Part shown: positions 93 to 56,565 of the stretch, in pieces | How the letters are laid out: each line of letters begins with the position of its first letter | Position numbering within the stretch: the stretch's first letter is position 1 | Source of the DNA: Nitrosomonas halophila | Lineage (GTDB): Bacteria; Pseudomonadota; Gammaproteobacteria; Burkholderiales; Nitrosomonadaceae | Assembly: GCF_900107165.1 (NCBI RefSeq) | Contig: NZ_FNOY01000010.1 | Span: 1-64,000, forward strand | Reading direction: 5' to 3' | DNA length: 64,000 bases | Notes under the pieces: generated by a model | What the model saw: only the letters and a program-made list of their open reading frames with translations | What the model was told of the DNA's origin: nothing | Databases searched by the model: none | Translations under genes and position numbers: made by a program

Positions 93-259
93 CTAGGAGG
101 CTGCCCGATAATAGACTGATCTACTGCGGACGAACCTGCCAAGCTGGATTTTCCGATCCTTTTCGTTGAATAGAACCACTATTCGCCTCAAATGATCGAA
201 AAATCCCGCTCAGCCAGCTTCGCCCTCGCTACGATCGCTATTCTCGGACAGCCTCCTAG
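93..259. repeat. MITE-like element, family A, copy 1
   Basis: A 167-bp element with no coding capacity. Its ends are inverted repeats: CTAG followed by GAGGCTG(C/T)CCGA.AATAG on the left, and the complement followed by CTAG on the right (about 18 bp, two mismatches). A second copy lies in inverted orientation at 54967-55132 and matches along almost its whole length. The right-hand CTAG supplies the TAG stop codon of the minus-strand rluE gene. CTAG fits the YTAR target duplication known for the IS5 subgroup, but assignment to a parent transposon is inference. Confidence 0.85.
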
Positions 260-819
260 CGCCTGCGCGGCCCAACCGGCACGTCCACTCTGCGCCACTG
301 GCCGGGTGCCAATCCCTGCAGCGACCAGGGGCCGATCGCGGTCCGAATCAATCGCAGGGTAGGAAAACCTGCTTTCGCGGTCATTCGCCGAACCTGACGA
401 TTCTTGCCTTCTTTCAGTACGATTTCCAGCCATCTGGTCGGTACGGTCCTGCGAAAACGCACCGGTGGCACGCGTGGCCACAATCCATCCGGTTCGGCCA
501 CCTGGCGCGCTTGACAGGGGCGCGTCACGAAATCACCCAGGTCGATACCTTTGCGCAACTTCTGCAAGGCCGCTTCATCCGGCTCGCCTTCCACCTGAAC
601 GAGATAAGTCTTGGGTAATTTGTGGCGGGGATCGGCAATTCGATGCTGTAACAGTCCATCATCAGTCAACAGCAACAGCCCTTCACTGTCGGTATCCAAG
701 CGCCCGGCCGGATAAACGCCCGCTATCGGAATGAAATCCTTGAGGATCTGCCGGTCACCGTCACTGGAAAATTGGCAAATTACGCCAAACGGCTTATTGA
801 ACAGGATAAGCTGCCCCAT
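256..819 (-). CDS. rluE: 23S rRNA pseudouridine synthase, RluE-type
   Basis: Pseudouridine synthase of the RsuA/RluB/RluE family, expected to isomerise one uridine of 23S rRNA (U2457 in E. coli). The family core is intact: GRLDTDSEGLLLLT carries the catalytic aspartate (about residue 42 from the chosen start), and EGKNRQVRRM and GFPTLRLIR are the conserved C-terminal motifs. There is no S4 domain, as in RluE. The frame is open up to a GTG at 915. The ATG at 819 is preferred because it starts just before the conserved ILFNKPFGV strand, but E. coli RluE also carries an N-terminal extension, so the longer form is possible. The stop codon TAG is the outer end of a family A repeat element. Confidence 0.85.
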   Translation of the reverse strand: MGQLILFNKPFGVICQFSSDGDRQILKDFIPIAGVYPAGRLDTDSEGLLLLTDDGLLQHRIADPRHKLPKTYLVQVEGEPDEAALQKLRKGIDLGDFVTRPCQARQVAEPDGLWPRVPPVRFRRTVPTRWLEIVLKEGKNRQVRRMTAKAGFPTLRLIRTAIGPWSLQGLAPGQWRRVDVPVGPRRR

Positions 820-1052
820 CAGACCCGCTGCGCCCGTCTGCGCGCAACCAGAAAAATTTGTCGAGACATCGTTGTAAGGCCTTCTTCGCCGAATAAGCTT
901 TCCCATCATTATCACGTGGATCTAAACCGAGGGGCAACTTTTGACGGCCACAGGCATCACGGCATGCCAGCTGGAAGACTGGCCAGACATCAGTTTCCAA
1001 CCTGCTGTTATAGTATGCTGTACGGACACGTATCTTCCAGGAGGCCCCCATC

Positions 1053-1761: not shown

Positions 1762-3732
1762 ATGGCTACGATTGAATCTATCCTGCATGAAACCCGAGTA
1801 TTTTCTCCTTCCGCCGAATTTGCCAAGCGCGCCAATATCTCCGGAATGGCAGCGTATCAGGCATTGTGTGATGAGGCCAAAAGCGATTACGCCGGTTTCT
1901 GGGGAAGATTGGCGCGTGATCATATTAACTGGCACAAACCGTTCACGCGCGTGCTGGATGAATCCAATGCCCCTTTCTACAAGTGGTTTGATGATGGTGA
2001 ACTGAATGTTTCCTGGAATTGCCTGGACCGTCATCTTGCGACGCAAGGGGATAAAACTGCGATCATTTTTGAATCCGACGAGGGTGAAATCACGCATTGC
2101 AGCTATCGCGAATTGCATGAACAAGTCTGCCAATTTGCCAATGGCCTGAAATCGCTCGGGGTCAAGCAAGGTGACCGGGTCGTCATCTACATGCCGATGC
2201 GTATTGAAGCAGTGATAGCGATGCAGGCCTGTGCGCGAATCGGCGCGATCCATTCAGTGGTATTTGGCGGTTTCTCGGCCAAAAGTGTACACGAGCGTAT
2301 CGTCGATGCCGGCGCAAGCGTGGTGATCACAGCCGATGAGCAAACACGGGGTGGCAAGCACCATGCGTTGAAAGCCACTGTGGATGAAGCGATGAGCATG
2401 GGAAATACCGACCTGGTTCGTGCTGTCGTGGTCTATCGGCATACCGGCACCGATATCGGCTGGCAACCCGGGCGGGATAAGTGGTGGCATGAGCTCGTCG
2501 AGGGACAAGCAAGTGAATGTGAGCCCGTCTGGGTGAATGCCGAGCATCCTTTGTTTACACTGTATACCTCCGGCTCTACCGGCAAGCCCAAAGGGGTGCA
2601 GCACGCCACGGCCGGTTACCTGCTGGGCGTGATGACCAGCATGCACTGGATTTTCGATTACCAGCCGGACGACATCTTCTGGTGCACGGCTGACGTGGGC
2701 TGGATCACCGGCCACAGTTACGTCACTTACGGACCGCTTGCCATGGGGGCAACCCAGGTGATTTTTGAAGGCGTCCCCACCTATCCCGATGCCGGACGTT
2801 TCTGGAAAATTGTCCAGGATCACAAGGTCACGACTTTTTATACCGCGCCGACAGCCATTCGCTCACTGATGAAGCTGGGGCCGGATCTGCCCCAGCAGTA
2901 TGATCTTTCTTCCCTCCGTTTGCTGGGCTCGGTCGGGGAGCCGATCAACCCCGAGGCCTGGATGTGGTATTACACCGAAGTTGGCCAATCGCGCTGTCCG
3001 GTGGTCGACACCTGGTGGCAAACTGAAACCGGCTGCCATATGATCGCACCGGCGCCCGGCGCGGTTCCGCTCAAGCCCGGCTCCTGCACACTGCCGTTAC
3101 CGGGAATCGATGCGGCAGTGGTCGACGAAGCAGGACACGAAGTCGAGCCGGGTTATGGCGGTTTCCTGGTGATCAAACGCCCCTTCCCCTCTCAGCTGCG
3201 CACCTTATGGAATGATCCGGAGCGGTTCAAGAGAGCGTATTTTCCGCATGATATCGGGGGCGGGCGCTATTATCTCGCTGGCGACTCTGCACACTGCGAT
3301 AAGGATGGCTACTTCTGGATTATGGGGCGCGCCGATGATGTACTGAATGTTTCAGGCCACCGGTTGGGCACCATGGAAATTGAATCGGCATTGGTGGCAC
3401 ACCCCTATGTGACCGAAGCCGCGGTGGTCGGCAGGCCGCATGAAGTCAAGGGGGAAACGATCGTTGCGTTCGTCGTGCTGAAGAACAAATTACCGCAAGG
3501 CGATCAAGTGGCTGAAATCACGGCAACCCTGCGGGACTGGGTCGCAAAGGAAATCGGCCCGATCGCCCGCCCCGAGGAAATCCGCTTCGGTGAGAATCTA
3601 CCCAAGACCCGTTCGGGAAAAATCATGCGGCGGCTCCTGCGCGCCCTGGCCAAAGGTGAGGAAATCACTCAGGATACTTCCACCTTGGAGAATCCAGCGA
3701 TACTGGAACAATTAAAGCAACCTGCACCCTAA
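1762..3732 (+). CDS. acsA: acetyl-CoA synthetase
   Basis: AMP-forming acetate-CoA ligase, 656 residues, a normal length for the family. It activates acetate to acetyl-adenylate and then acetyl-CoA. The N-terminal ACAS domain is followed by the AMP-binding domain with the nucleotide loop [13 protein letters not shown] (about residues 267-279) and the WWQTETG motif. The small C-terminal domain carries [10 protein letters not shown] with the lysine (about 618) that is acetylated in homologues to switch the enzyme off. A GAGGA ribosome-binding site precedes the ATG. A metallo-hydrolase gene follows 27 bp downstream and may be co-transcribed. In an autotroph the enzyme would serve acetate salvage. 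Confidence 0.97.
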
Positions 3733-10483: not shown

Positions 10484-10649
10484 CTAGTACTCCGTTCCGC
10501 CAAACCGCTTACATGAAATCGCGCCTTCGCCTGTCATGCGTTGTTGCAAATCCTTGCCATAGCTACGGCTATGACTGCGGTTTGCGCCTAGCCTGGCAGG
10601 CGAATCCATCGATTTCATTTGCAAGCTAATTGACGGAACGGAGTACTAG
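10484..10649. repeat. MITE-like element, family B, copy 1
   Basis: A 166-bp non-coding element beginning CTAGTACTCCGTTCCG and ending with its complement, CGGAACGGAGTACTAG, so the outer repeats are about 16 bp. A copy in the same orientation and of the same length is at 13634-13799, with only a handful of differences. Internal palindromes (CGCCTGGCAGGCG and CATAGC.GCGGCTATG) are present. With its partner it brackets the ars operon. The CTAG ends fit a YTAR-type target duplication. Confidence 0.9.
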
Positions 10650-13633: not shown

Positions 13634-13799
13634 CTAGTACTCCGTTCCGCCAAATCGCTTACATGAAATCGCGCCTTCGCCTGGCAGGCGTTGTTGCAAA
13701 TCCTCGCCATAGCTGCGGCTATGACTGCGGTTTGCGCCTAGCCTGGCAGGCGAATCCATCGATTTCATTTGTAAGCTAATTGACGGAACTGAGTACTAG
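13634..13799. repeat. MITE-like element, family B, copy 2
   Basis: Second 166-bp copy of the element at 10484-10649, in direct orientation, with the same CTAGTACTCCGTTCCG end and a near-identical interior (CGCCTGGCAGGCG in place of CGCCTGTCATGCG). One base in the right terminal repeat differs. It lies about 130 bp upstream of arsR, so the two copies enclose the whole ars operon. Confidence 0.9.
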
Positions 13800-54966: not shown

Positions 54967-55132
54967 CACGAGGCCTGTCCGAGAATAGCAATCGTAGCGA
55001 GGGCGAAGCTGGCGGAGCGGAATTTTTCGATCATTTGAGGCAAATAGTAGCTCTATTAACAAAAAGGATCGGAAAATCCGGTCAGCCAGGCTCGTCCGCA
55101 GTAGATCAGTCTATTCTCGAACAGCCTCCTAG
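54967..55132. repeat. MITE-like element, family A, copy 2
   Basis: About 166 bp, inverted copy of 93-259, with the same interior (AATAGCAATCGTAGCGAGGG, GATCGGAAAATCC, CCGCAGTAGATCAGTCTATT) and the terminal repeats GAGGC(C)TGTCCGAGAATAG and CTATTCTCGAACAGCCTC. Its right-hand CTAG supplies the TAG stop of the minus-strand ahcY gene. The left flank reads GCAC in place of CTAG, so no clean target duplication is seen. It separates ahcY from metF. Confidence 0.85.
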
Positions 55133-56565
55133 TAACGGTACATATCGGGTTTATAGGGCCCGTTCTTATTCAAATTGAGATAACGTGCCTGCTCATCAGT
55201 CAACTCGGTCAGCTGGGCACCGAGTTTTTCAAGATGCAAGCGTGCAACCATTTCATCCAGGTGCTTCGGCAACACAAAAACTTTTTTCGGATAGTCCGCG
55301 CCATTTGTCCACAGCTCGATTTGCGCCAATACTTGATTGGTGAACGAATTCGACATGACGAATGAGGGATGGCCGGTTGCACAACCGAGATTCACCAGAC
55401 GTCCCTGCGCCAGCACAATGATCCGGCGGCCAGTCGGGAAAATAACATGATCTACCTGCGGCTTGATGTTCTCCCAAGGGTATTTCTGGATGGAGGCAAT
55501 ATCGATTTCCGAGTCGAAATGACCAATATTACAGATAATTGCCTGATCCTTCATTTTCACCATGTGGTCATGATGAATGACCCGAAGATTGCCGGTGGCA
55601 GTCACAAAAATGTCAGCTTTGTCACAAGCATCCTCCATGGTGACGACACGATAGCCTTCCATCGCGGCTTGCAATGCGCAGATTGGATCAATTTCAGTAA
55701 TCCAAACCGTTGCGCCCAGGCCGCGCAATGATTGCGCACAACCCTTGCCGACATCGCCATAGCCACAGATTACCGCAATTTTACCGGCGATCATGACATC
55801 GGTCGCGCGTTTGATCCCATCAACCAATGATTCGCGGCACCCATAAAGATTATCGAACTTGGATTTGGTGACCGAATCATTCACATTAATGGCAGGAAAT
55901 GGCAATTCGCCTTTCTTGTCCATTTCATACAACCGATGCACACCGGTGGTGGTTTCCTCGGTAACACCGCGAATATTGGCCAGGTTGCGTGAATACCAGC
56001 CAGGTTGCTCGGCCATGCGTTTTTTGATCGAAGCGAATAATACCCGCTCTTCTTCATTGGTCGGATTGGCAATGACGGAAGGATCCTGCTCGGCCTTGCT
56101 GCCGAGGATGAGCAGCAATGTAGCATCGCCACCATCGTCCAGAATCATATTGGCAGCGCGTGAGCCATCAGACGACCACTCGAATATACGATGAGCATAA
56201 TCCCAGTATTCTTCCAGCGATTCTCCCTTGTAGGCGAATACCGGAATTTTTTGGGCCGCAATAGCTGCGGCAGCATGATCCTGGGTGGAAAAAATATTAC
56301 AGGAGGCCCAACGAACCTCGGCACCCAGAGCGACCAAGGTCTCGATCAATACCGCAGTTTGTATGGTCATATGCAGGGAACCGGCGATCCGAGCCCCGGC
56401 CAGCGGTTGCTGACTGGCATACCGTTCACGCAACGCAATCAGGCCCGGCATTTCGGTCTCGGCAATGGCGATCTCCTTTCTGCCCCACTCTGCCTGGGAT
56501 GGATCGGCGATCTTGCAGTCGATAAAAGAGTTGTCGCCCGTATTGGGACTTATTACAGCATTCAT
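55129..56565 (-). CDS. ahcY: S-adenosylhomocysteine hydrolase
   Basis: A 478-residue NAD-dependent enzyme that splits SAH into adenosine and homocysteine, removing the inhibitor of methyltransferases. Seen: [35 protein letters not shown], the NAD-binding [19 protein letters not shown], and the C-terminal [10 protein letters not shown], whose last residues are the normal family end. The stop codon TAG coincides with the CTAG end of a repeat element, so the protein is full length despite the insertion. An SAH riboswitch lies in its leader. A GGAG ribosome-binding site precedes the ATG. Confidence 0.97.

Follow-up and report, generated by a model that had tools for sequence, protein, structure and literature searches.

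At one edge of the window (the whole stretch of 64,000 nucleotides of Nitrosomonas halophila DNA analysed here), a pseudouridine synthase gene read on the minus strand runs into an imperfect palindrome of 159 bp that lies between two CTAGs. A second copy of this element, which we call family A, adjoins ahcY further along. The features concerned are the following:

93-259, no strand assigned: family-A element (palindrome with both CTAGs), the copy adjoining rluE
93-96, no strand assigned: distal CTAG of the 4-bp target duplication, a duplication demonstrated at locus L105 and by matched variant flanks
97-255, minus strand: 159-bp core of the putative MITE; its minus strand, on which rluE also lies, folds better and is RNA-like
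256-259, no strand assigned: proximal target CTAG; 256-258 on the minus strand are the TAG stop of rluE
256-915, minus strand: rluE, pseudouridine synthase family, ending in CTAG; the true start may be inside the open reading frame
54970-55128, plus strand: second 159-bp family-A copy; the better-folding strand is the plus strand, antisense to ahcY
55129-55132, no strand assigned: CTAG with the TAG stop of ahcY, as read in the sequence
55129-56565, minus strand: ahcY, ending in ...YRY-TAG

The names rluE and ahcY rest on NCBIfam models. The ahcY product scores 614.6 bits with TIGR00936 (cut-off 497.6), and the rluE frame scores 181.7 bits with the pseudouridine synthase model TIGR00093, above its cut-off of 109.3, and 219.6 bits with the RluE model, under that model's cut-off of 284. 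The 18-nucleotide end GAGGCTGTCCGAGAATAG has four matches in the window, against 0.03 expected from shuffles: at 238-255 (no mismatch) and 97-114 (two mismatches) for the rluE copy, and at 54971-54988 (three) and 55111-55128 (one) for the ahcY copy. An earlier note on this DNA had observed that the end of the element is the stop codon of rluE, that the same holds at ahcY and that the orientation with respect to the gene is reversed between the two copies. We confirm this observation: each gene's TAG is read on the minus strand within the adjoining CTAG, and the best model strand is minus for 97-255 and plus for 54970-55128, both genes being on the minus strand. The same note's statement that both ends carry CTAG is true of the rluE copy, but the ahcY copy has GCAC as its outer flank. 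For 97-255, the model R1 gives 149.9 bits on the minus strand and 62.2 on the plus strand, and the minimum free energy of 93-259 is -94.1 kcal/mol for the minus strand versus -71.9 for the plus strand. A gene that ends in a family-A CTAG runs into TAGGAGG, at each end of the element; the AGGAGG (257-252 of the window, minus strand) is Shine-Dalgarno-like and overlaps the stop codon, where it might influence termination or reinitiation.

Family A is present in about 100 copies in the host genome, a draft of 3.21 Mb in 156 contigs. With up to three mismatches, the 18-nucleotide end has 213 matches there (108 + 105), against 2 + 0 for a control with the reversed pattern, and the core has 100 matches, against none for its control. 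We examined the surroundings of the 98 cores matched elsewhere in the genome, and of six sites where an end was matched but no core; these six were picked from 100 listed among the 213 ends. Together with the window, these regions contain 93 near-full copies, 84-99% identical to the consensus, and 19 partial pieces; CTAG stands on both sides in 53 of the 93. Family A therefore combines the short length, the many copies and the terminal inverted repeats by which MITEs are recognized. In the sampled host regions CTAG is a scarce word, with 426 occurrences in about 600 kb, where base composition predicts 2322 and the counts of CTA, TAG and TA predict 517.

CTAG is the duplicated 4-bp target and lies outside the element proper. 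Orthologues of rluE differ too much for an empty site to be recognized in them, the best-scoring match outside the host genome reaching 67% over 464 bases. An empty site is provided by the family-A copy at L105, which splits a CTAG inside a repeat of another family, B: at the same site, six of seven other family-B copies have an uninterrupted CTAG, and that in L044 has CCAG. Matched variant flanks also occur, TTAG/TTAG and TTAA/TTAA in genome G183 and CCAG/CCAG in genome G145 (host's class). The empty site and the matched variant pairs show that four bases are duplicated, as in MITEs, and that the element itself measures 159 bp. Since the target is duplicated, a C-TAG stop is kept whichever way the element is inserted, as the earlier note had supposed.

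Members of the IS630 family duplicate a TA target. A TA duplication in that style was set aside on the TTAG/TTAG and TTAA/TTAA flanks, the latter favouring a 4-bp duplication over a TA duplication, unlike IS630. The TA termini and TA duplication of ERIC/NEMIS-type repeats were not found either in family A, which has CTAG flanks and the same two variant pairs. Genome G183 is in a single contig, and 13 of its 15 examined copies are flanked by CTAG/CTAG, one by TTAG/TTAG and one by TTAA/TTAA. This pattern looks like recent activity; despite such flanks, G183 has no IS1182 match above the cut-off.

Two further repeats were seen in the course of this analysis. Family B is another long imperfect palindrome; its ends are TACTCCGTTCCG, and it is found in the window at 10488-10645 and 13638-13795 (158 bp). 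The window and the examined regions hold eight family-B end pairs, of which seven are spaced 158 bp; CTAG is on both sides in seven of the eight, L044 having CTAA on one side. Families A and B are of the same length class and have the same target, with different ends. Two family-A copies (L078:3001-3389 and L086:6377-6805) are interrupted by yet another inverted repeat, whose ends are TTAGGGCTCGTTAATGAATAACTTG.

Which transposase could move such an element? The only insertion sequence found with nearly family-A ends is at L187, in the complete genome of Desulfosediminicola flagellatus. It has CTAG on both sides, its ends show one and two mismatches in 18 to the family-A end, and the product of its 508-residue frame matches NF033551 (IS1182) with 383.7 bits (cut-off 270) as well as the Pfam DUF772 and DDE domains. 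Two mini-elements of 139 bp with the same ends stand in tandem beside it, sharing CTAGs. In two family-A copies of the host genome (L063, near 2943-3101, and L088, near 2919-3077), the flank continues directly into a further element end across a CTAG-type junction, an arrangement that we liken to the tandem at L187. IS1182 genes above the cut-off and with CTAG on both sides were also found in the host's genus (L140) and class (L405); their ends are of a related type, [CG]AGyCyGTCGGACTT, of which single ends occur at L139 and L143.

Family A differs from IS1182 elements and their MITEs in the content of its host genome, which has no IS1182 match above the cut-off, NF033551 having two weak matches (best E-value 3.7e-6) in this 156-contig draft, where collapsed insertion sequence copies could be missing. 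PF01609 has ten matches in the host genome, and in those loci no pair of GAGGCTGTCCGAGAATAG ends encloses a transposase; one of them, L034, has an ordinary 162-bp family-A copy nearby. An IS1182 gene above the cut-off is present in two of 16 carrier genomes, in neither case with exact family-A ends, and the IS1182 loci of the genus and of these 16 genomes show no family-A end pair among the matches listed. In viral contigs neither a relative of the L187 transposase nor an exact 19-nucleotide end was seen, and the plasmid collection has only relatives below 60% identity. The terminal repeats are thus shared with one IS1182 element, that at L187, related ends being found at L140 and L405, and no autonomous partner was found in the host genome. 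Because its ends and target match those of an IS1182-family insertion sequence, family A is best read as an IS1182-type MITE. It is very probably a non-autonomous element, a 159-bp palindrome that inserts into CTAG and duplicates it, with no need for stop codons to be recognized. Judging from the shared ends and target, it would be mobilized in trans by an IS1182-family transposase.

In PMC8027508, GGCC targets are reported for the IS1182 member ISPsy36 and a CTAG target for ISPsy32, an IS630-family element. ISPsy32 thus has the same target as family A, but the transposase that goes with family-A ends, at L187, is of the IS1182 family. PMC2229807 and PMC10969869 describe ERIC, Correia/NEMIS, YPAL and RUP as non-autonomous repeats of about 100-200 bp, present in many copies and forming stable RNA hairpins; family A is like them in size, copy number, hairpins and lack of autonomy. 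YPAL is without the terminal TA, unlike the others, and its duplications measure 3 to 26 bp (PMC2229807). Unlike ERIC, Correia, YPAL and RUP, family A duplicates CTAG and is found in many genera, beyond one phylum. We found no description of the family-A element in the titles and abstract openings of the literature searched, and it is possible that it has been described elsewhere.

At least 106 stretches in genome records contain the exact 22-nucleotide end, 80 records being named. The carriers among the matches listed include Nitrosomonas, Methylococcaceae, Thiotrichaceae, Sedimenticola, Endozoicomonas and Mariprofundaceae, together with several Desulfo- and Deltaproteobacteria and one metagenome-assembled genome (MAG) labelled Verrucomicrobia; many of these are MAGs, whose labels can be wrong. 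The closest named carrier among the matches listed is a Nitrosomonas nitrosa record (L242), at 0.91 identity. Those loci and nine loci of the genus provide 90 paired elements, of which 51 measure 158-160 bp. Seven elements of 139 bp are a separate kind, all in Deltaproteobacteria, Desulfo- or Tharpella records. A model built from the alignment described below finds the element in at least 36 of 185 genomes of the class, host included, and in 36 of 177 genera; the scan used strict filters and scored at most 16 candidates per genome, and these figures are lower bounds.

In kind, family A is an ordinary IS1182-type CTAG MITE; what was unexpected is a fold of one strand that is widely conserved. 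We aligned the window copy with 45 of the 48 elements that measure 157-160 bp and have an identity of at least 0.67 to the host consensus. The consensus energy of this 46-sequence alignment is -75.5 kcal/mol on one strand and -17.8 on the other, 95.5% of cells pair, and compensatory changes are seen at 35 of 62 pairs. Cells changed on both sides number 272, versus 69.0 (standard deviation 8.6) in shuffles, a comparison in which the shuffles leave relatedness in and the structure is derived from the same alignment. Variable pairs include 167 G-U versus 16 A-C, or 46 versus 8 after dereplication to 16 sequences, a count in which G-U is favoured by deriving the structure from that strand. Independently of the alignment, the same strand folds better in all 46 diverse copies and in 90 of 93 host copies, and in 45 of the 46 when DNA parameters are used. 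It also folds better in all 51 copies taken from four genomes that were not part of the alignment, a cleaner test for that reason, drawn from four lineages only.

A fold kept on one strand suggests selection on RNA. The pattern points to selection on a single strand, putatively as RNA, and single-stranded DNA may also be its basis. It is possible, and we offer this tentatively, that family A is a mobile structured RNA, with a fold kept by selection and a transcript that would matter for the spread of the element or for its hosts, in Nitrosomonas, Endozoicomonas, Thiotrichaceae, Mariprofundaceae and the MAG labelled Verrucomicrobia. CTAG targeting would leave such an RNA close to the ends of genes, and the RNA would have no Rfam match: a search of positions 1-600 of the window against Rfam has nothing on 93-259, and two microRNA models fall below threshold at 6-52 and 405-473.

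Selection might also keep the element if a transcribed hairpin acted on the upstream mRNA and modulated its stability or termination, an effect described for ERIC and Correia/NEMIS elements. The better folding of one strand in the diverse copies and in the four other genomes, the excess of compensatory cells and the ratio of G-U to A-C would all be compatible with such a role, and Correia and ERIC elements are described as affecting transcripts in PMC10969869. Relative to the upstream gene, however, the element has no preferred direction: at stop sites 14 copies run with the gene and 8 against it (p = 0.29), and in tandem gaps the numbers are 27 and 22 (p = 0.57). The better-folding strand is thus often not in the gene's transcript, and we consider this role rather unlikely.

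Are stop codons themselves a target, as the earlier note had proposed? To class the insertion sites, each element was removed in silico, genes were called with a codon-based caller, and the restored CTAG was assigned to a stop, an intergenic region or the inside of a gene. This was done for 106 sites (93 near-full and 13 partial), of which 102 keep at least one intact CTAG. Copies are rare inside called genes of the host: only 3 of the 102 are there, while 22 are at stops of called genes and 77 are intergenic. In these regions 317 CTAGs of unique context are free of the element; this background, drawn from the neighbourhoods of copies, comprises 18 at stops, 158 intergenic and 141 inside genes. 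Stop versus intergenic sites give an odds ratio of 2.5 (22:77 versus 18:158, p = 0.012); with two other caller thresholds the ratio is 2.4 (p = 0.020) and 3.2 (p = 0.0014), and with only the copies that have CTAG on both sides (13:40) it is 2.9 (p = 0.012). Plain open reading frames give 1.8 (p = 0.086), 2.0 (p = 0.051) and 2.5 (p = 0.016) for minimum lengths of 80, 100 and 150 residues.

The earlier note had expected stops to be enriched over the CTAG background, and they are in the host genome; the enrichment is not significant in two samples from other genomes. The 106 loci of named records contain 76 elements, of which 74 could be classified with open reading frames of at least 100 residues: 6 are at stops, 54 intergenic and 14 inside frames, versus 18, 180 and 382 free CTAGs (odds ratio 1.1, p = 0.80). 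Four other genomes of the class contain 51 elements, 41 of them with at least one CTAG, and here the counts are 7, 14 and 20 versus 10, 28 and 60 (odds ratio 1.4, p = 0.57); gene avoidance is not clear in this sample, where crude reading frames place 20 of 41 copies and 60 of 98 free CTAGs inside. The pooled Mantel-Haenszel odds ratio is 1.6 (p = 0.084), and 1.2 (p = 0.74) without the host genome. The note had also held that a majority of copies at intergenic CTAGs, at the rate expected by chance, would speak against its reading: most copies are indeed intergenic, and only in the host genome are stops occupied more often than chance would give.

Distances from the stop, tested in the host genome with sites at region edges excluded and with tests picked after the data had been seen, also bear on the question. 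CTAGs at the stop are used no more than those 1-100 bp past it (odds ratio 1.1, p = 0.83), which indicates that the stop itself is not special. The whole interval from 0 to 100 bp past the stop is preferred over the remainder (odds ratio 2.1, p = 0.008), and the first 25 bp past the stop (1-25) alone hold 10 copies versus 2 (p = 0.0015). Copies show no avoidance of divergent gaps, which account for 22 of 91 versus 30 of 129. A transposase or host factor that targets the element to stop codons or to the 3' ends of genes could account for the 22 of 102 copies at stops and for the excess within 25 bp, but the 77 copies in intergenic CTAGs, the equal use of stops and downstream CTAGs, and the two other samples make it distinctly unlikely. 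Stop codons are an accepted landing place and no special target. The interpretation of the earlier note is thus partly supported, the element having been over-read as aimed at stop codons. CTAG choice together with tolerance at gene ends suffices, although the excess at 1-25 bp is above indifference and points to some preference for gene ends, arising either at insertion or through selection.

The sites of family A are best explained by the following course of events. The 159-bp palindrome with its GAGGCTGTCCGAGAATAG ends inserts into CTAG and duplicates it, putatively moved in trans by an IS1182-family transposase, and C-TAG stops are one class of harmless CTAG. Insertions in genes would mostly be lost, as we infer from the rarity of copies there (3 of 102, against 141 of 317 free CTAGs). 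With CTAG scarce in the host genome and insertions lost from genes, the survivors would be left in intergenic CTAGs and at or just behind the ends of genes.

The genes that end at element stops are real genes. The ahcY gene has matches in 36 of 38 genomes, and in 20 of the 30 loci examined it has TAA or TGA as the stop at the same YRY codon (seven of the other ten were unparsed, two were misparsed and one is the host's own), which argues that the position of the stop predates the insertion. We scanned 20 of the 22 stop-site proteins, leaving out those in L082 and L091. In thirteen of them the match to an NCBIfam model extends nearly to the end of the model and to no more than 15 residues from the protein's C-terminus. 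Sigma-54, release factor 2, ribonucleotide reductase beta and alanine racemase belong to this group, in which some matches are under the model cut-off; three other proteins match partly or weakly and four match no model. That insertion into coding sequence supplied new stops and truncated these genes, as the presence of the stop in the CTAG beside the element might suggest, is hardly credible and was rejected on the CTAG duplication (the target already contained TAG), the ancestral end codon of ahcY and the C-terminal matches of 13 of the 20 proteins.

The wider surprise is an element of near-constant 159-bp length with an RNA-like fold in at least 36 of 185 genomes, for which 14 of the 16 carrier genomes searched have no IS1182 gene above the cut-off and which also has no Rfam match. 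At the level of the genes, the proteins are left whole because the 4-bp palindromic target includes the stop codon and is duplicated. A mobile element of high copy number can thereby occupy the very stops of housekeeping genes such as those for AhcY, sigma-54, release factor 2 and ribonucleotide reductase beta.
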